Assembly: GCF_034314105.1 (NCBI RefSeq)
Contig: NZ_JAVIWJ010000001.1
Location: 841,501 to 905,500, forward strand
Direction: 5' to 3'
Origin: Pseudomonas sp. AB6
GTDB lineage: Bacteria; Pseudomonadota; Gammaproteobacteria; Pseudomonadales; Pseudomonadaceae
DNA length: 64,000 nucleotides
The stretch's first letter is position 1. Every line of letters starts with the position of its first letter. Below are positions 1 through 51,360 of this stretch, piece by piece. The notes below the pieces were generated by a model, which had not been told where the DNA came from, searched no databases, and saw nothing but the letters and a program-made list of their open reading frames with translations. The position numbers and the translations under genes were made by a program.

Positions 1-727
1 CTGGGTTTTTAGCAGGCAGAAAACCGATGCCATCATCTGCTATGTGCAGTAATAGTCCTTCTGGTGAGCGCTGCAAACGGACCAAAAGATTGTTTGCGGC
101 GGCATGTCTCAGCATATTAGTCACGGCTTCTTGAGTGATTCTAAACGCCGCAACCGCGACCTCTTCCGATATGCCAGACAAGCGCTGATGACATTCCAAA
201 CTCCAATGCACAGCCGTGTCACTCAGCGTGCGCGACAGATGCGCACGCAAGCTGGCTTCTAGCCCAAGACTGGCCAGTTGGCGAGGATTGAGAATAGCCG
301 ATACATCGCGCACCTTCGTGAGCGTCTCTTCCAGCGTTGTACATAGCGTTAAAAACTGTTTCTCCAGTTCCACCGGTATATGGCGTTGCAGCAAGTCGCT
401 TTGCAGTTTGGCGGCGGTAAGCATCTGCCCAATGTCGTCATGCAGTTCGCGGCTAAGCCGATGACGTTCTGTCTCTTGAACTTCAAGCATGCGTTCAGCC
501 AATTCTTGTGGCTGAAAATTAATCGAGTTACCTGACCTGCGTTGCACATACCAGACGCTGGCGACTGTCGCTAGGTTTAGCGCTAACAGTTCAGGCGGCA
601 ATGCCATTGCGGCGAGATAAACTGCGAGATTGCCTGCGATCAATCCCCCGCAGAGTGCGACTGTCAACCAGCGAGCGTTATTTTTGCTCAGAGACCGAAA
701 TTTGAGTGATTTAATGCTGGCATACAT
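1..727 (-). CDS. Sensor histidine kinase, NarL/UhpB type (3' end outside window)
   Basis: This is the N-terminal 242 residues of a two-component sensor kinase, read on the minus strand and cut by the window edge. After a short basic start there are two hydrophobic stretches (about residues 18-55), so it is membrane-anchored with almost no periplasmic loop. A HisKA_3 dimerisation/phosphoacceptor motif follows (ETERHRLSRELHDDIGQ, His in ELHDD). The N and G1 boxes of the HATPase domain appear at the end (FRITQEAVTNMLRHA, then ADDGIGF). This architecture usually pairs with a LuxR/NarL-type response regulator, which would lie outside the window. The ATG at 727 is chosen because the frame is open from there; the upstream Shine-Dalgarno is weak. 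The signal sensed is unknown. Confidence 0.85.
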   Translation of the reverse strand, partial: MYASIKSLKFRSLSKNNARWLTVALCGGLIAGNLAVYLAAMALPPELLALNLATVASVWYVQRRSGNSINFQPQELAERMLEVQETERHRLSRELHDDIGQMLTAAKLQSDLLQRHIPVELEKQFLTLCTTLEETLTKVRDVSAILNPRQLASLGLEASLRAHLSRTLSDTAVHWSLECHQRLSGISEEVAVAAFRITQEAVTNMLRHAAANNLLVRLQRSPEGLLLHIADDGIGFLPAKNP

Positions 728-45126: not shown

Positions 45127-46137
45127 CTAGCGACCTTCCAGCAGCTCTGCCGCTTGATCCAGCAGCGCCAGTGGGTTCTGCGCTTTATGTATGTCAACTG
45201 ACAGCAGTTGCCGAAAGCGCCGTGCCCCGGGAAACCCCGTGCCAAGCCCCAGTACATGGCGAGTGATGTGATGCATCGACCCGCCGTTCTCAATATGCGC
45301 GGCAATATAAGGTCTCAACGCCGACAGCGCTTGCGCCCGGGAGATCACTGGCGCGGTGCTGCCAAAAAGCCGTTGATCGACGGCAGCCAGAATGTATGGA
45401 TTATGGTAAGCCTCGCGGCCCAGCATCACCCCATCAAAGACTTGCAAATGCTCGGCGCACTGGTCGAGGGTCTTGATGCCACCGTTCAGAATAATTTCCA
45501 AATCGGGAAAATCTGCCTTCAGCTTTGCCGCTACGTCATACCGCAGCGGCGGAATATCGCGATTCTCTTTCGGCGACAAACCCTCAAGAATCGCGATCCT
45601 CGCATGCACGGTAAAGCTGGTACAACCCGCTTCATGCACCTGCCCGACAAAATCACACAGCTCGGCGTAGCTGTCTCGGCCATTGATTCCGATGCGATGT
45701 TTCACGGTCACCGGAATAGCCACTGCATCCCGCATTGCCTTCACACAATCCGCTACCAGCCCCGGATGCGCCATCAACACAGCACCGATCAAATTGTTTT
45801 GCACCCGATCACTCGGGCAGCCCACATTCAGATTGACCTCGTCATAACCGGCAGTCTCCGCCATGCGCGCGCACGTTGCCAAGTCTCCAGGGACGCTGCC
45901 ACCCAATTGCAAAGCCAATGGATGCTCGGCCTGGTCATGGCGCAGGAAGCGCTCGTGATCGCCATTGAGTAAGGCGCCGGTAGTGACCATCTCAGTGTAG
46001 AGAAGCGCATGCTTTGACAGTAGCCGCAGGAAGTACCGGCAATGATGATCGGTCCAATCCATCATGGGGGCAACAGAGAAACGCCTAGACACCGTAGAGC
46101 TTGTGTTTACAGGGTATATAGCTGATTTCGGTAACAT
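45127..46137 (-). CDS. dusA: tRNA-dihydrouridine synthase A, with element-supplied 5' end
   Basis: A 336-residue FMN flavoenzyme that reduces uridines in the D-loop of tRNA. SVAPMMDWTDHHCRY (FMN site), the catalytic Cys in NVGCPSDRVQNN, TVKHRIGI and NGGIKTLDQC are intact. The first 17 residues (MLPKSAIYPVNTSSTVS) are unlike a normal DusA start. They lie on the element side of a 7-bp core (46078-46084), so they appear to have been provided by the inserted prophage, as is known for dusA-targeting elements. The start codon, ribosome site (GTAGAGAAA) and promoter therefore also come from foreign DNA. Confidence 0.94.
   Translation of the reverse strand: MLPKSAIYPVNTSSTVSRRFSVAPMMDWTDHHCRYFLRLLSKHALLYTEMVTTGALLNGDHERFLRHDQAEHPLALQLGGSVPGDLATCARMAETAGYDEVNLNVGCPSDRVQNNLIGAVLMAHPGLVADCVKAMRDAVAIPVTVKHRIGINGRDSYAELCDFVGQVHEAGCTSFTVHARIAILEGLSPKENRDIPPLRYDVAAKLKADFPDLEIILNGGIKTLDQCAEHLQVFDGVMLGREAYHNPYILAAVDQRLFGSTAPVISRAQALSALRPYIAAHIENGGSMHHITRHVLGLGTGFPGARRFRQLLSVDIHKAQNPLALLDQAAELLEGR
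46078..46084. other. Probable attL core in dusA
   Basis: GAAACGC on the plus strand (GCGTTTC in dusA sense, codons Arg-Phe of RRFSVAP). The same 7 bases in the same codon phase recur at 50464-50470. Dus-directed integrases use this end of the gene. Confidence 0.6.
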
Positions 46138-46195
46138 TTTTCTCTACGTGTTCACAGCGGGTTTCAGGGCGATTTAGGGCTTTTTTTCAGCTCGA

Positions 46196-46232
46196 TGGTA
46201 CAACGTACCAACTCAAAACCGGCGTGTACCAA
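46196..46232. repeat. GTACCA repeats at the left end (possible integrase arm sites)
   Basis: TGGTAC (46196-46201), CGTACCA (46204-46210) and TGTACCA (46225-46231) lie between dusA and the integrase. The complementary TGGTACGAA pair at 50436-50455 marks the opposite end. Arm-type binding sites are a reasonable reading, but unproven. Confidence 0.45.
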
Positions 46233-46238
46233 ATCGAT

Positions 46239-46605
46239 ATGGCAACTATCAGGATCAGAAAACGGGCCGACGGAACGGCCAGCTATACCGCTCAAATCCG
46301 AATCATGCGTCAAGGAGTGCAAGTCTACCAAGAGAGTAAGACCTTCGCCCGGAAACAGGCAGCGCAGGCTTGGACTCGTTCGTGTGAAACAGAGTTGGAT
46401 CAACCCGGCGCCATCGAGAGAGCGAACCGCAAGGGCGTCACCATCAAGGACATGATCAATCGGTACCTACTGGAGATGGAGAAGGTCAGACCCTTGGGAA
46501 AGACCAAGCGGGCCACCCTTGTGGCGATCAGTGTCGCCGACTTCGGCAACCTGAAAGACACGGACATCAATAGCCGGCGATTGGTCGAATTCGCCCGGTG
46601 GCGTA
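46239..46605 (+). pseudogene. Tyrosine-type integrase, 3'-truncated
   Basis: About 120 residues of a phage integrase. An N-terminal arm-binding region (MATIRIRKRADGTASYTAQI, KTFARKQAAQAW) and the start of the core-binding helical domain (TIKDMINRYLLEMEK, GNLKDTDINSRRLVEFARWRM) are present. The homology then stops where minus-strand tail-gene sequence begins. The catalytic domain with the R-H-R-Y residues is absent, so no recombinase can be made. The location beside the 5' end of dusA fits the family that targets this gene. ATG 46239 is preferred; a GTG at 46224 is in frame. Confidence 0.85.
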
Positions 46606-46619
46606 TGAGCGCTGAATTC

Positions 46620-46845
46620 TGCGCCACTTCGAAGGTATCCTTGCCCGACGCCCCAGTTCAATCAACATGCCCTGTTGGTCCTCTGGCCAAAGGCTAATGG
46701 CGTAGGCTTTGCGTTCTTCCAGAATCTGCTCGTAGTCGATCTGCTCGACCACTTGCGGTGCGGGCAATTGGCTCAGGTCGATAGCCGTAAAGGTGTTCAT
46801 ACGCCGGCCCCTAGTTGCAGGGGAATGCGCAGGTTTTGGGGTACG
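46620..46845 (-). pseudogene. Baseplate genes W (tail end) and J (start), P2 type
   Basis: J begins at 46800 with MNTFTAIDLSQLPAPQVVEQ and continues DYEQILEERKAYAISLWPEDQQ, then loses similarity to J near 46665. In another frame the preceding bases read VPQNLRIPLQLGAGV and end at a TGA that overlaps the J ATG. This is the C-terminus of the neighbouring W wedge protein with the usual overlap. Only about 15 residues of W and 45 of J remain. Confidence 0.75.
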
Positions 46846-47196
46846 TTTCAAGTGGTGCGCGTTGCTGTCATATTCGATAACCGTACCGTCGCGATAGGTA
46901 CGGCGATGCAAACCGCCACGGTCGCCGTTGGCGGGTATCGCATTACAGTAAACCCCGGTGACGACGACCCCGTTGGCCAACTGGCCGGATGGACTCAACA
47001 AAAGCACTTGCTCATTGACCGTCGGCGGGTCCCAATCGACATCCGCCCCGGCCCGCAGGGCCAGCCATGGCAGCCAGCCGGTGAGTAAATCACCGGTTTT
47101 AACGCGGACACGGGGCGGCACCATCTGAACTTCGGCGATGGTACCGAAGCGGATTAAATTTTCGAGCATGCGGGCGATAGCGGCGAAATCGTTCAT
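46846..47196 (-). pseudogene. Baseplate spike protein V, N-terminal half
   Basis: Starts MNDFAAIARMLENLIRFGTI and follows the P2 gpV pattern: VQMVPPRVRVKTGDLLTGWLPWLALRAG (written here only to mark the OB-fold region in parts), VNEQVLLLSPSGQL, and GTVIEYDSNAHHL at about residue 115. There it runs straight into the W remnant without a stop, so a deletion fused V to W and J. The C-terminal spike part is missing. Confidence 0.78.
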
Positions 47197-47293
47197 GCCG
47201 CCATAGTGGCGTTCACGCGTGCGGGGCGCAGCTAGAGGGGGTTGTGTGGGGCTCTGCTACAGAGTACACCGCCCAACTTTCAATGCGCGGAGA

Positions 47294-47584
47294 TCACCAG
47301 TCGCGATTACGTTCATTGCGTTCATGAAGAATGCGAACAATTGAGATGATCTCGTGGGCCACATGATAAGCAACGATAAAGGGGTAGCGGGTTAAAACTA
47401 ACTCACGAACATCGGGCGCTTGGGAGGGACGGCCCATGCCTCTAAAGGTTTTCAACTGCTCGATGGAGTCAAAAATGTCCGCGATAACAGCGTCAGCTCT
47501 TCCGTTGCCTAGGTGCGATACATAGTGTTCATGGATCGCATCCAGGTCGCTTTGCGCTTTTTCAGTCAGTTCGATTAGCAGCAC
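47294..47584 (-). CDS. ParE/RelE-family toxin
   Basis: A 96-residue toxin-like protein: MLLIELTEKAQSDLDAIHEHY, then GRPSQAPDVRELVLTRYPFIVAYHV and a final ISIVRILHERNERNRDW. This is the ParE subgroup pattern (gyrase-directed in studied members), although RelE-type mRNA cleavage cannot be excluded. It overlaps the antitoxin gene by 23 bases, which supports translational coupling. It appears intact, unlike the surrounding phage genes. Confidence 0.87.
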   Translation of the reverse strand: MLLIELTEKAQSDLDAIHEHYVSHLGNGRADAVIADIFDSIEQLKTFRGMGRPSQAPDVRELVLTRYPFIVAYHVAHEIISIVRILHERNERNRDW

Positions 47585-47813
47585 GCTTTACCCACTTGGC
47601 TTTAACGGTTTCTAGATCAGTTACCCTGCCAGCCTCGACATCCGCCATACCTTCGGCGATGGCTTTGACGTGCCAGGATTCAGATTCAACATAACGAGCC
47701 AACGCGCGTTTGAGATGATATTGACGATCACGATCAGTAGCCTGGGCCAGTTGATCAAGCTTTTCTACCAACACATCTTCCACGCGAAATGACAAAACAG
47801 GCGAAGCCATCAT
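47562..47813 (-). CDS. Ribbon-helix-helix antitoxin (ParD/CopG type)
   Basis: 83 residues. The N-terminal ribbon-helix-helix segment VLSFRVEDVLVEKLDQLAQATDRDRQYHLKRAL (positions 5-37) binds DNA, and a C-terminal helical tail (ADVEAGRVTDLETVKAKW) should wrap the toxin. Two adjacent ATGs (47813, 47810) follow GAGGAAG. A longer in-frame start would read through the palindromic operator at 47832-47848 and is rejected. Confidence 0.87.
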   Translation of the reverse strand: MMASPVLSFRVEDVLVEKLDQLAQATDRDRQYHLKRALARYVESESWHVKAIAEGMADVEAGRVTDLETVKAKWVKRAANRTD

Positions 47814-47831
47814 TTCTTCCTCATGAAGTTC

Positions 47832-47848
47832 TGTATACGTCGTATACA
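47832..47848. promoter_or_regulatory. Palindromic operator of the ParD/ParE-like pair
   Basis: TGTATACGTCGTATACA is a perfect 8+1+8 palindrome 18 bases upstream of the antitoxin start. This is where toxin-antitoxin operons are normally autoregulated. Confidence 0.8.
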
Positions 47849-48080
47849 ATATTGATTAATGTAATCAACTGCTAAACATAATGCAACTAGGCGCTAATGT
47901 TTGCACAAGGAAGAAGGGCGCATTTGTCTTGATAGCTCGGGACATTCAACCCTGTTTCGCGCCTGAAACTGGGACACCAATTATTTTTGCGGTGTTGCTA
48001 TGAAACAAAAAAATTTGCTTGCCGTTTGTCGGTTTATTCCTGAAGTACATTCTGAGAAGTAGCTTGCTAGCTTGTATCGG
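47849..48080. other. AT-rich non-coding stretch upstream of the toxin-antitoxin pair
   Basis: No gene is supported. The AT-rich part near the operator probably carries the antitoxin promoter. A 20-codon open frame at 48000-48062 (MKQKNLLAVCRF...) lacks a ribosome site and resembles nothing I know. Confidence 0.4.
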
Positions 48081-48536
48081 TCAGTCGGCGAGGTGCCTCA
48101 GCAAACTGTCGCGGACCATCTCCAGATCCGCAGCAGTAAACCCCAACTGCTCCCGTTTCGCATAACGAACATCCGCCGCTCCTTTTCCGGGACGGTTTTT
48201 CAATCCGTACTGGTGAACCCTGGCAATACGGGCGATACGCCCGGTAAAGCCCACCGTAATCGCGTTCGCATCGCCCTTTGCCTTCAGGTAACGGGCGGTG
48301 CGCAGCTTTTTGAACATCTTGGCTTTGAGCTGAATACGGCCTTGTTTACTCCGCAAATTGCGTTGCTTTCGCGGCGTGAACGCGCTGCCTGAGGGCGTGC
48401 GCTGGGAGGTGATGCGTTGCTGTTGGCTTCGGCGTAGCTGCTTTGCAATGCCTTGTGCCAGGCTGATGCAGGCGGCGGGTTCAAGCTTGTTGAGCAGGAC
48501 GCCGACCCAGTCTTCCAAGCCATCGAGATCACTCAT
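48081..48536 (-). CDS. Phage tail completion protein S (virion morphogenesis)
   Basis: 151 residues, the normal length of P2 gpS. It starts MSDLDGLEDWVGVLLNKL; the basic central part (TPSGSAFTPRKQRNLRSK, MFKKLRTARYLKAK) and GFTGRIARIARVHQYGLKNRP are family hallmarks. The start overlaps the end of R by eight bases, as in P2-like phages. It looks intact but has no partners left to work with. Confidence 0.9.
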   Translation of the reverse strand: MSDLDGLEDWVGVLLNKLEPAACISLAQGIAKQLRRSQQQRITSQRTPSGSAFTPRKQRNLRSKQGRIQLKAKMFKKLRTARYLKAKGDANAITVGFTGRIARIARVHQYGLKNRPGKGAADVRYAKREQLGFTAADLEMVRDSLLRHLAD

Positions 48537-48834
48537 GGCGATCCGGCCGTGGGTGCGGGGTGGTTAATGCCATGGCATCGCCCGCTTGCGGGGGTTGCCA
48601 CTCGGCGAGGAGTTCGCCGTTGGCGTAGACCTGAACTGGCTCGGCGTCTTGATAGGCGGTGTATTGCGGTTCTGAAGCGTGGCGCAGGTCGTAGCTGTAT
48701 TCGAATGACAGGCTAGTGGCTGCCGTGCAGCGGACGCTGCCGTTGTCGATGAATATCAGCAGGCGATCAGGGTCGTGTTTGAGTTCTGAGATGGATGTCA
48801 GCAGGTGGGCGCGAAGGTTGTCGGACTTGTTCAT
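48529..48834 (-). pseudogene. Phage tail completion protein R with internal deletion
   Basis: 101 residues against about 150 in P2-like relatives. The N-terminus (MNKSDNLRAHLLTSISELKHDPDRL, here spanning residues 1-25) and the C-terminus (EPVQVYANGELLAEWQPPQAG) both match R. Around residue 47 the frame jumps from LSFEYSY to DLRHASEPQYTA, indicating an in-frame loss of roughly 50 codons. The product would lack the middle of the protein. Confidence 0.75.
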
Positions 48835-49025
48835 GGGGCGACCTGCTGTTGCTGATAGAGCATCTCGACTTGGGCTGCGCATTCGGCCCAAGCGGACTCG
48901 ACCCGCTCTTGATCGGTCAGTAACTCGCCGTTATGGGTTGGCTGTGTCGCCGGTAGGCTGCAGGGCACTACGGCCGGACAACCAGTGACGGTAACCCTGC
49001 AGCACGGAGCTAAATTTGGACGCAA
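48831..49025 (-). pseudogene. Rz1-like outer-membrane spanin, 5'-truncated
   Basis: The C-terminal part of an Rz1/LysC-type spanin: CPAVVPCSLPATQPTHNGEL, then DQERVESAWAECAAQVEMLY. Its stop overlaps the R start (ATGA), as in P2-like lysis cassettes. The lipoprotein signal that should precede the Pro/Cys segment is missing, replaced by unrelated bases near 49020. Holin, endolysin and Rz are absent. Confidence 0.7.
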
Positions 49026-49069
49026 ACCTCCTACAGACGCATCACAGCAACCCGTGCGATTTAAGGATC

Positions 49070-49331
49070 GCCATCGGAAAAAGGTAATTTAGGTGAAACG
49101 AGGGTGCAATCGGGCTAGAGGCCACGTTTTTTCTGCCTCAAGGACATTACTTAGAAAGGTAATTTGAAAAAGGAAATGTGATCGTAAGCTATTGATTTTA
49201 AAGGGCGGTGCATAAAGCTCAGATTACAACCGACCAATATTACCTTTTCTATATTAGTAAAACCTAAATTAAATCAATAGCTTGAGGCGTTAATCGAGAC
49301 CAAATTACTTTTATTACCTTTTTCCGGTGGC
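49070..49331. repeat. 262-bp AT-rich element bounded by 19-bp inverted repeats
   Basis: GCCATCGGAAAAAGGTAAT (49070-49088) and its complement ATTACCTTTTTCCGGTGGC (49313-49331) differ at one base. Inside are AGAAAGGTAATTTG (49153-49166) versus the inverted form ending at 49250, and an exact 13-bp pair AAGCTATTGATTT (49186-49198) / AAATCAATAGCTT (49271-49283). The motif AAGGTAAT thus occurs twice in each orientation, pointing inward from both ends. No open frame of note lies inside. It looks like paired transposon ends or a MITE; no target duplication is visible. Confidence 0.65.
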
Positions 49332-49628
49332 TCTCCCCAAAAACGCCGACTAGCACACACGTAGACGTCGATGCACATGCTCGCGAAACCTAGCGCTAGC
49401 GCTGTCGCGGACTCATTGAACTAGGAGGTTGAAAGCTTAAATGCTAAAAAATTGCTACACGACGAGCTGGTACCCGCCGCAACACGAACATAGCTGAACC
49501 GGGTGCCATTTTGGCGGGAGAGCCTCCCAGGGCAGTCCGCGAGGCCGCAAACCGCTGACTAGGGAGTGGACTTCCTGTTTGAGAACCATGGGCGAATGAG
49601 CCAGGAAGCTTGCCACGCAGCTATGATG
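49332..49628. other. Unassigned non-coding stretch between the repeat element and mqsA
   Basis: About 300 bases with normal GC content and no convincing gene on either strand. It contains small inverted repeats (AGCGCTAGCGCT at 49393-49404; GGGAG-AG-CCTCCC near 49516-49529). Either phage remnant or regulatory DNA; not recognised. Confidence 0.3.
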
Positions 49629-50036
49629 TTACGCGGCCCTGACCTCACTTAATAACTCGGGGTGATGGTCTAGCAGCCTCAACAACAAGACAAGAGACAG
49701 CGGTGGCTTGGTCTTGCCAGTTTCGTATCGGGAAAAAGCATTAGCACCGCCCCCGAAAATTTCAGCCGCTTGGCGCTGATCGAGCGATAATTTCTTGCGC
49801 ACAGTACTGATAAAAGCGGGGTCAACAATGGCTGCGTTTACTTGTTTCGAAAACTGGCGCATTTCACGCATTACCCGATCCGATTCAGTCGCGTCCAGTA
49901 TGGATTCCGCACAGGCCGGGCAGAAGTCCCCAGTCACCGCAGTAATAACGGTGCTTTCACCCTTGTAGGTATAGGGCAGGTCGCGGGTGTCGTGGATCAG
50001 TTCCGCCGCACCACAAACAGGGCATTTCATATTCAT
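49629..50036 (-). CDS. mqsA: Antitoxin MqsA
   Basis: 135 residues (133 from the second ATG). The N-terminal zinc-binding domain has CPVCGAAEL and FCPACAESI; the C-terminal helix-turn-helix has RKKLSLDQRQAAEIFGGGANAFSRYETGKT, the DNA-recognition hallmark of MqsA. In E. coli MqsA neutralises MqsR and represses its own operon. AAGGAG lies directly before the ATG at 50036, within the 3' end of mqsR, keeping the native overlap. All key residues appear intact although its toxin gene is broken. Confidence 0.93.
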   Translation of the reverse strand: MNMKCPVCGAAELIHDTRDLPYTYKGESTVITAVTGDFCPACAESILDATESDRVMREMRQFSKQVNAAIVDPAFISTVRKKLSLDQRQAAEIFGGGANAFSRYETGKTKPPLSLVLLLRLLDHHPELLSEVRAA

Positions 50037-50327
50037 AACTCCTTGAAGGAACGATCAGCACGTCAGCAATGACTGTCAGCTTTAAATACACGTCGCCAAC
50101 GGTTGTGCTGGGGCGGTATACGTCTTGCCAGACGGCGTGATCGGCGTGGGTGGTCATGCTTTTGTAGAAATCTGGTGGCGTGAGAGCCGCCACGATGGCC
50201 AGCATATCCGTAAGCCCAGATCCAAGTCCGTTGCGCCGACTCGCGCAGCATTTGTGGTACGTACCTTGCCCGCTTCGATCAGGGCTTTGACGGTGGTCAG
50301 TTTGCTGTGGGGGGTTCGTTTTTCCAT
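50033..50327 (-). pseudogene. mqsR: Toxin MqsR, inactivated by two frameshifts
   Basis: The frame starts MEKRTPHSKLTTVKALIEAG, a close match to the MqsR N-terminus, and runs to LDLGL. Near 50207-50212 one base is missing, after which another frame continues DMLAIVAALTPPDFYKSM, THADHAVWQDVYRP and VYLKLTVIADVLIV. Near 50055 a second base is missing, so the expected ending (SFKEL then TGA overlapping the mqsA start) is in yet another frame. No full MqsR ribonuclease can be produced. Order toxin-antitoxin is as in E. coli. Confidence 0.88.
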
Positions 50328-50339
50328 GAAAAAGATATT

Positions 50340-50352
50340 AACCTAATAGGTT
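50340..50352. promoter_or_regulatory. MqsA operator
   Basis: AACCTAATAGGTT is an exact AACCT-N3-AGGTT palindrome, the known MqsA recognition pattern, 12 bases upstream of the mqsR start. A further AGGTT half-site lies at 50367-50371. Confidence 0.88.
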
Positions 50353-50435
50353 TAAATTTGGCAAATAGGTTATTTTTGTCAGAAGCTGCTTCAGATGAGC
50401 GAGAGTAAATCTCCGGCGACCGTTTGGGTGGGGAG

Positions 50436-50455
50436 TGGTACGAAACTGGTACGAA
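50436..50455. repeat. Direct repeat TGGTACGAA at the right end
   Basis: TGGTACGAA occurs at 50436-50444 and 50447-50455, 9 bases inside the proposed right core. It matches the GTACCA motifs beside the integrase at the opposite end, in inverted orientation. Confidence 0.5.
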
Positions 50456-50463
50456 GGGAGATT

Positions 50464-50499
50464 GAAACGCTCACAGGCCTTTGTTCCCGGAGTGCGCAT
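50464..50499 (-). pseudogene. dusA: Original 5' end of dusA (attR side)
   Basis: Read on the minus strand, ATG at 50499 gives MRTPGTKACERF, ending in the GCGTTTC core. Joining it at the core to the resident gene continues in phase as SVAPMMDW, which would restore a dusA of ordinary length. The duplicated core is GAAACGC at 50464-50470. Inferred from phase and position. Confidence 0.6.
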
Positions 50500-50691
50500 T
50501 CTTAGCGGGTCCAATCCTTCAGCGCGCTTGGCCTCATAGAACTTTTCCAGTCCCTCGTATTGAGGCATGAGGCCACATTTCGATGCGACGTTGACCACAA
50601 GCAGCACTTTGCCCTCAAGCGGCGCCAACGTAGTTGAATCCCCCGTAATGGAAAGTGAAGCCCAAGCCAAGCAAAATTTCCATACTGCCAC
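50500..50691 (-). pseudogene. Glutathione peroxidase, truncated
   Basis: A GPx N-terminal fragment: GDSTTLAPLEGKVLLVVNVA, with the peroxidatic Cys in NVASKCGL, and PQYEGLEKFYEAKRAEGL. The family motif with the Gln (FPANxFxxQEPG) and all downstream parts are missing. The frame instead runs without a stop into the dusA start fragment. The upstream start is also unclear. A deletion next to the element probably removed the rest. Confidence 0.72.
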
Positions 50692-51156: not shown

Positions 51157-51360
51157 GGAGCATAAGGACGCATCTGGTTGTTATCTGACGTTTTTTTTGG
51201 GAGGGGACTTACCACTCATCGGGAGATTCTGAACCGTCATGCTTTTTGGCTCGTCATTTTCTCTGAGTTGTGGGGTGGCGGTTAATACGTTAGGTCGCGG
51301 TGGCTTGCTGCTACTTCTTGCAAGAGGTGATTAGGCGATGGGGTTCGAAAGGAGTTGTCA

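Follow-up and report, generated by a model that had tools for sequence, protein, structure and literature searches.

How can a prophage relic begin in dusA and end in a glutathione peroxidase (GPx) gene? The question is raised by a locus of Pseudomonas sp. AB6, studied here in a window of 64,000 nt (the whole stretch of DNA analysed: contig NZ_JAVIWJ010000001.1 of assembly GCF_034314105.1, positions 841,501–905,500 of the forward strand; all coordinates below count from the first base of this window). A preliminary description of the DNA had placed a P2-like relic of about 4.4 kb between two copies of the 7-mer GAAACGC and had read from them an empty site, in which an uninterrupted dusA would stand next to a peroxidase gene. 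The P2-like relic of dusA type stands, with P2-like tail genes between these points, whereas the core and the outer border assigned to it do not. The element ends instead at two copies of a different attachment core, the outer of which cuts a GPx gene. The explanation that we favour, and hold to be rather probable, is that the relic descends from a P2-like prophage with a dusA-associated integrase, that its inner end lies in the dusA core, and that its outer junction arose when the integrase recombined the outer attachment (att) site with a look-alike in the GPx gene.

The borders of the element

The position of the core can be read from relatives. In genome G021 the outer end lies ~46 kb from dusA, and there the old dusA start reads through RRFSVAPMMDWTDQR before other sequence takes over, which places the core further into dusA than had been thought. 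When 29 relatives were searched for a second dusA-like core, using a pattern that itself fixed the MMDWTD codons, 17 proved to carry one; these second copies share contig and strand with dusA, from which they are about 8 to 100 kb away. In 14 of these 17 outer ends, RRFSVAPMMD or HRFSVAPMMD stands directly before GGATTGGA, mostly upstream of the search pattern. A score matrix over the RRFSV codons was also tried as a means of finding outer ends, and worked in G021 only, of three elements. The true core is GATGATGGATTGGA; it lies at the MMDWTD codons, some 12 to 25 bases deeper into dusA than GAAACGC.

Two copies of this core are present in the window, both on the minus strand: TGATGGATTGGACC at 46051–46064, at the same position in dusA as in the relatives, and TGAAGGATTGGACC at 50508–50521, which matches their outer cores. 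Together they form an imperfect direct repeat, TGA[T/A]GGATTGGACC, alike at 13 of 14 bases, and such repeats at both ends are characteristic of elements with a dusA-associated integrase (DAI). With both strands counted, GGATTGGA occurs twice in the window, at 46060 and 50517 (both minus), and TGANGGATTGGACC is found at the two cores and nowhere else. The outer core is accompanied by two repeats, CGTACCA-N4-CGTACCA (50436–50453, minus), at +64 and +75, for which the label 'arm-type' was coined in this analysis. YGTACCA lies at exactly +64 and +75 in 14 of the 17 outer ends of relatives, and the window is identical in spacing; the remaining three (L228, L236 and L237) lack arm repeats and were retained in the counts of 17.

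The resulting pattern, core-N56-arm-N4-arm with one mismatch allowed, was searched for in 398 genomes of the genus and occurs in 75 of them, counting the present one, while the reversed pattern, used as a control, gave no match at all. The outer site of the window fits it with 0 mismatches. Since GGAYYGGA is a fixed part of the pattern and no more than one mismatch was tolerated, outer ends with a different core escape it. Core and arms at the spacing of the family define an element of about 46060–50517, with 4457 bp between the cores. More generally, dusA elements of this Pseudomonas type have their attachment core at the MMDWTD codons and their arm repeats at set distances of 64 and 75 bp, and for one class among them the pattern provides a means of locating the outer ends. 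In G109 (locus L104, around 15848) the outer core is preceded by dusA likeness over MMDWT only, which may represent a decayed dusA start or another rearranged border.

What, then, of GAAACGC? Much of what had been reported about it is correct: copies are present at 46078–46084 and 50464–50470, both encode Arg-Phe on the minus strand in one codon phase, and an ATG does open MRTPGTKACERF. The shared codon phase speaks for the view that the 7-mer is the core and that MRTPGTKACERF-SVAPMMDW was the old dusA start, a view which nonetheless appears very improbable. The 7-mer occurs at chance frequency (14 copies in the window against a mean of 14.93 expected from 100 shuffles), and in the 17 outer ends read the core lies deeper in dusA. 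Given the position of the real repeat, the copy at 50464 sits ~40 bp inside the element and cannot be its outer border. The ATG of the peptide is likewise within the element, 10 bases past the core, and MRTPGTKACERF belongs to a longer open frame that begins in the GPx gene. Nor do relatives have the start that was predicted for them: RTPGT or ACERF occurs within the 40 codons before APMMD in none of the 80 named Pseudomonas dusA loci among the matches listed. A caution follows, namely that an 'empty site' inferred from a single window may depend on a short chance repeat.

The dusA end

The dusA gene (45127–46137, minus; Pfam Dus) is composite. Its 5' part as far as the core (~46053–46137) is derived from the element and reads MLPKSAIYPVNTSSTVSRRFSVAPMMDW, and the remainder is the resident gene. 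An integrase match, with the integrase of the window as query, lies within 1.6 kb upstream in 39 of the 80 dusA loci. Many of the integrase-bearing loci have a dusA 5' end like that of the window, and many of those without have a different 5' end with a nearer ATG. As relatives with the integrase share the window-like 5' end, the unusual start of dusA comes from the element, in agreement with the preliminary description, and the element has supplied the gene with a new 5' end, a hallmark of DAI elements. The loci without the integrase are not all empty, since L144, counted among them, carries another integrase-like open reading frame (ORF). As has been shown for a Vibrio dusA island (PMC8409611), dusA is likely still expressed from the sequence that the element provides. 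The original unbroken dusA start is probably not readable from the window.

The surroundings of dusA in other genomes deserve a brief mention. In L113 (P. fragi), L127 (P. weihenstephanensis), L135 (P. psychrophila), L179 (P. helleri) and L075 (G127), the interval from the anti-sigma antagonist gene to dusA contains no match to tal, in which respect the window differs. In L100, L102 and L103 (G022, G020 and G018) dusA is inverted with respect to tal; its orientation at the locus varies within the genus.

The glutathione peroxidase end

At the outer border the 5' part of a GPx gene (50510–50661, minus; GSHPx, 1.3e-9) is cut at the core, and the best relative of this remnant, in another genome, is 72% identical. 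The comparison set comprised 43 GPx sequences representing 37 distinct genes, and the latter were used for identities in blocks counted from the core. Against the 37 genes, identity is 0.81, 0.71 and 0.41 in the blocks -60..-40, -40..-20 and -20..0, 0.58 in the core, and 0.37, 0.22 and 0.21 in the blocks +8..28, +28..48 and +48..64. For the five nearest GPx genes the same blocks give 0.78, 0.73 and 0.65, then 0.75 in the core, then 0.33, 0.35 and 0.28. With 14 element ends as the reference, the three blocks preceding the core score 0.28, 0.14 and 0.35; the core itself reaches 0.96, the spacer blocks give 0.34, 0.44 and 0.28, and the arms 0.92. These identities indicate that GPx sequence extends to the core and that the element starts there. 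The spacer is poorly conserved in the family and therefore tells little, and the +8..28 block alone cannot separate GPx from element. GPx homology running past the core to 50470, as a tblastx alignment had it, is not borne out by the low base-by-base identities beyond the core.

The typical neighbour of the outer repeat is the old dusA 5' end, which is clear in 14 of the 17 relatives; in the window GPx stands there instead. With an outer flank that is GPx cut at the true core, and not the old dusA 5' end, the two flanks very likely formed no single gene before insertion, and the reconstructed empty site has to be given up. The peroxidase that had been predicted upstream of dusA was equally absent, in that none of the 80 loci matched the GPx remnant of the window (blastn, E 1e-6) in up to 10 kb of upstream DNA, less than 9.9 kb of which was available in 10 of the 80.

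How unusual the junction is can be judged from 90 other outer ends, comprising 87 of the 88 others from the 398-genome search (a G220 site at a contig end was left out) and three from genomes outside that draw. The bases before the core are TGAT in 89 of the 90 and TTAT in one, compared with TGAA in the window, and up to 400 bp upstream of the core yielded no GPx match (E 0.01) in any of the 90. The TGAA and the peroxidase of the window are thus unique in this set. By their flanks, 54 of the 90 sites have a clear dusA 5' end (50 by a stricter rule), 20 have a recurrent flank termed 'VMD' and 16 are partial or unclassed. An assembly error at the 8–14-bp repeat hardly deserves credence: the contig is 4.99 Mb long, the genome is in 2 contigs, and so short a repeat seldom misjoins such an assembly. 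A literature search combining dusA, glutathione peroxidase and integrase returned no related paper, and 'glutathione peroxidase' is absent from the main text of the principal study of DAI elements (PMC4482086). The family is known, and the hybrid border is the one unusual thing about this member.

The same survey brought to light paired outer-end signatures 1.4–2.4 kb apart in G218 (two pairs), G196, G230, G240 and G397 (loci L337, L223, L366, L367, L376, L230, L385, L386, L411, L412, L369 and L362). Five of the six pairs combine one dusA-like flank with one 'VMD' flank, often ending TTTTCGGTGATGGATTGGA; in G230 both flanks are of the VMD type. Such pairs might represent small satellites arranged in tandem where dusA elements have their outer end.

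How the two loci may have been joined

Halves of an att pair in two different genes are not what ordinary single-site integration gives, and one exchange by the integrase is the shortest route to them. Comparison with relatives establishes the two cores, the arms, the dusA start taken from the element and the junction at which GPx homology stops; integrase action, a deletion and an order of events are what we infer. The prophage would at first have lain wholly within dusA. The present junction would have arisen by integrase-mediated strand exchange, in which the outer att site, composed of the old dusA 5' end, the core and the element, was one partner and a stretch of the GPx gene resembling the core was the other. 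When two such sites point the same way, what lies between them is lost; the segment concerned, which would have carried the 3' part of GPx and the old dusA 5' end, probably left as a circle. Later deletions may then have removed most phage genes and the C-terminal part of the integrase, a loss by which the relic would now be fixed.

Deletion is favoured over inversion, as the rest of the genome yielded neither a dusA 5' remnant nor the 3' half of GPx. No second dusA copy of the core was detected within 3 mismatches, the two 3-mismatch sites do not read as dusA, and a search for a second dusA 5' end gave none. A separate GPx 3' half was likewise not found in this genome, where the three other GPx matches lie in long open frames. 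Whether dusA integrases can fuse distant loci, so that the relic would be the fossil of a large deletion with an att half-site left in each gene, is a proposition to which we give about even credence.

The main rival is a deletion at shared bases in which the integrase had no part: a prophage lodged normally in dusA would later have had its outer flank replaced through short homology between the core and the GPx stretch. The nearest GPx genes share 6 of the 8 core bases, a short likeness that would suffice for such an event, and the integrase is now broken. That the breakpoint coincides with the core of the family argues against it, since an unrelated deletion could end anywhere in the flank or the element, and we regard this course of events as possible but rather unlikely. 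A second copy of the element could alternatively have integrated into GPx as a secondary site, homologous recombination with the copy in dusA then joining the loci. Integration into GPx would yield exactly the observed outer junction, several genomes have more than one outer end, and targets other than dus genes are reported in PMC4482086; two steps are needed, though, and this genome has one outer-end site, which together make this route distinctly improbable.

The favoured explanation, an integrase exchange with the GPx look-alike, has several points to contend with. The junction is a single case. At the core position the five nearest GPx relatives have GGCCTGGA, GGGCTGGA or GGGTTCGA, so that the look-alike before the event may have been weaker than the copy now in the window suggests. 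The GPx remnant has no clear start codon, and no relative was found in which an intact GPx adjoins the genes of the right flank of the window; a distant SDR (26–28% identity) does stand beside GPx at three loci in two genomes (G103 and G280). In G246, DUF6388 does not flank DUF1275 on the side where it stands in the window, but on the opposite one, and DUF1275 is placed elsewhere in other relatives. The absence of a reciprocal product could, finally, also reflect decay or too weak a search.

Other observations on the right flank concern DUF1275, which is present in 9 of 12 genomes asked. In G246 its distance from dusA is about 69 kb and the orientation is the same, an arrangement weakly suggestive of a loss of intervening DNA, and in five other genomes no dusA match lies within stretches of 12–20 kb around it. 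The 110-aa ORF at 51355 has a match in 43 of 298 genomes, its own included, the others being at most 39% identical among the matches listed. The relic is one case of a dusA element that has joined two loci, and the core-N56-arm-N4-arm signature can be used to seek further such junctions.

Gene content of the relic

The relic begins beside dusA with a broken integrase (46224–46670, plus). Its N-terminal part runs to ~46610 and is followed by a gap (~200 bp relative to G021) and a short out-of-frame piece to ~46669; the C-terminal part is absent, so no excision is expected. The remnant is 77% identical over 128 aa (L064) and 73% over 131 aa (L007) to dusA-adjacent integrases. It adjoins the dusA 5' end as the integrases of the DAI family do, and its assignment to that family is by gene position, not by published sequence.

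The remaining genes are all on the minus strand. A baseplate wedge gene fragment (phrog_6, 46678–46809) adjoins the integrase remnant, followed by a portion of the baseplate gpV gene (Phage_base_V, 46780–47196). Further along are P2 gpS-like (Phage_tail_S, 9.3e-34; 48081–48536) and gpR-like tail completion proteins (48529–48891; only the N-terminal part of the profile, 1–51 of 133) and, by profile match, a LysC/Rz1-like spanin remnant (48831–49025). These tail genes stand in P2 order, with gpV, gpS and gpR recognised by Pfam. Comparison of 46550–49100 with phage records gave 12 matches, of which six, all Pseudomonas phages, align over 43–48% at 70–72% identity in four joined pieces, the aligned genes of the best record being named V, R, S, W and J. 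These six we take to be P2-like phages. Capsid, portal and terminase genes were not seen among the ORFs searched, some small ORFs of the relic lying outside the search, and no phage record matched the junction sequence.

Two toxin–antitoxin pairs accompany the phage genes. Between the gpS and gpV remnants lies an open ParE/RHH pair (47294–47849), in which a ParE-like toxin ORF with an open frame (47294–47584) and an RHH (CopG-like) antitoxin ORF (47562–47849) were both identified by profile match. Nearer the outer end (49629–50327) mqsA is complete (49629–50036; MqsA_antitoxin, 3.1e-63, profile 1–131 of 131) and mqsR (49957–50327) is broken across two reading frames, its separate pieces scoring 0.0029, under the curated cut-off, and 3.6e-18.

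Comparison with known systems

The preliminary description was right to assign the relic to the known dusA integrase family, that of the DAI islands and prophages (Farrugia et al. 2015, PMC4482086), about half of which are prophages and the others of which include phage remnants; the smallest island there measures 4758 bp. Like these elements, the relic has an integrase by the dusA 5' end, an island-supplied dusA start and imperfect end repeats. Unlike them, it has a broken integrase and an outer end in GPx rather than beside the old dusA 5' end. Prophage 03 of Pseudomonas protegens Pf-5 (PMC4482086) is also a P2-like lysogen in a Pseudomonas dusA, but at 41.5 kb, and shown to excise, it differs from the 4.46-kb relic. 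Smhb1 of Salinivibrio kushneri (PMC8537503) is again P2-like, with a dusA integrase and additional short direct repeats near both ends; its far-end fragment is a dusA 5' piece ending in the repeat where the relic has GPx, and its genome was also obtained from intact head particles. The Vibrio dusA islands (PMC8409611) share the imperfect repeats, there of 21 bp, but are mobilizable islands and not phage. For the proposed exchange itself the nearest parallel is secondary-site integration by lambda (PMC6379469, PMC5605937), whose integrase acts on sequences resembling att at other places in the genome of the host, although lambda belongs to another phage family and what is described there is integration at a secondary site, not an element with its ends in two genes.

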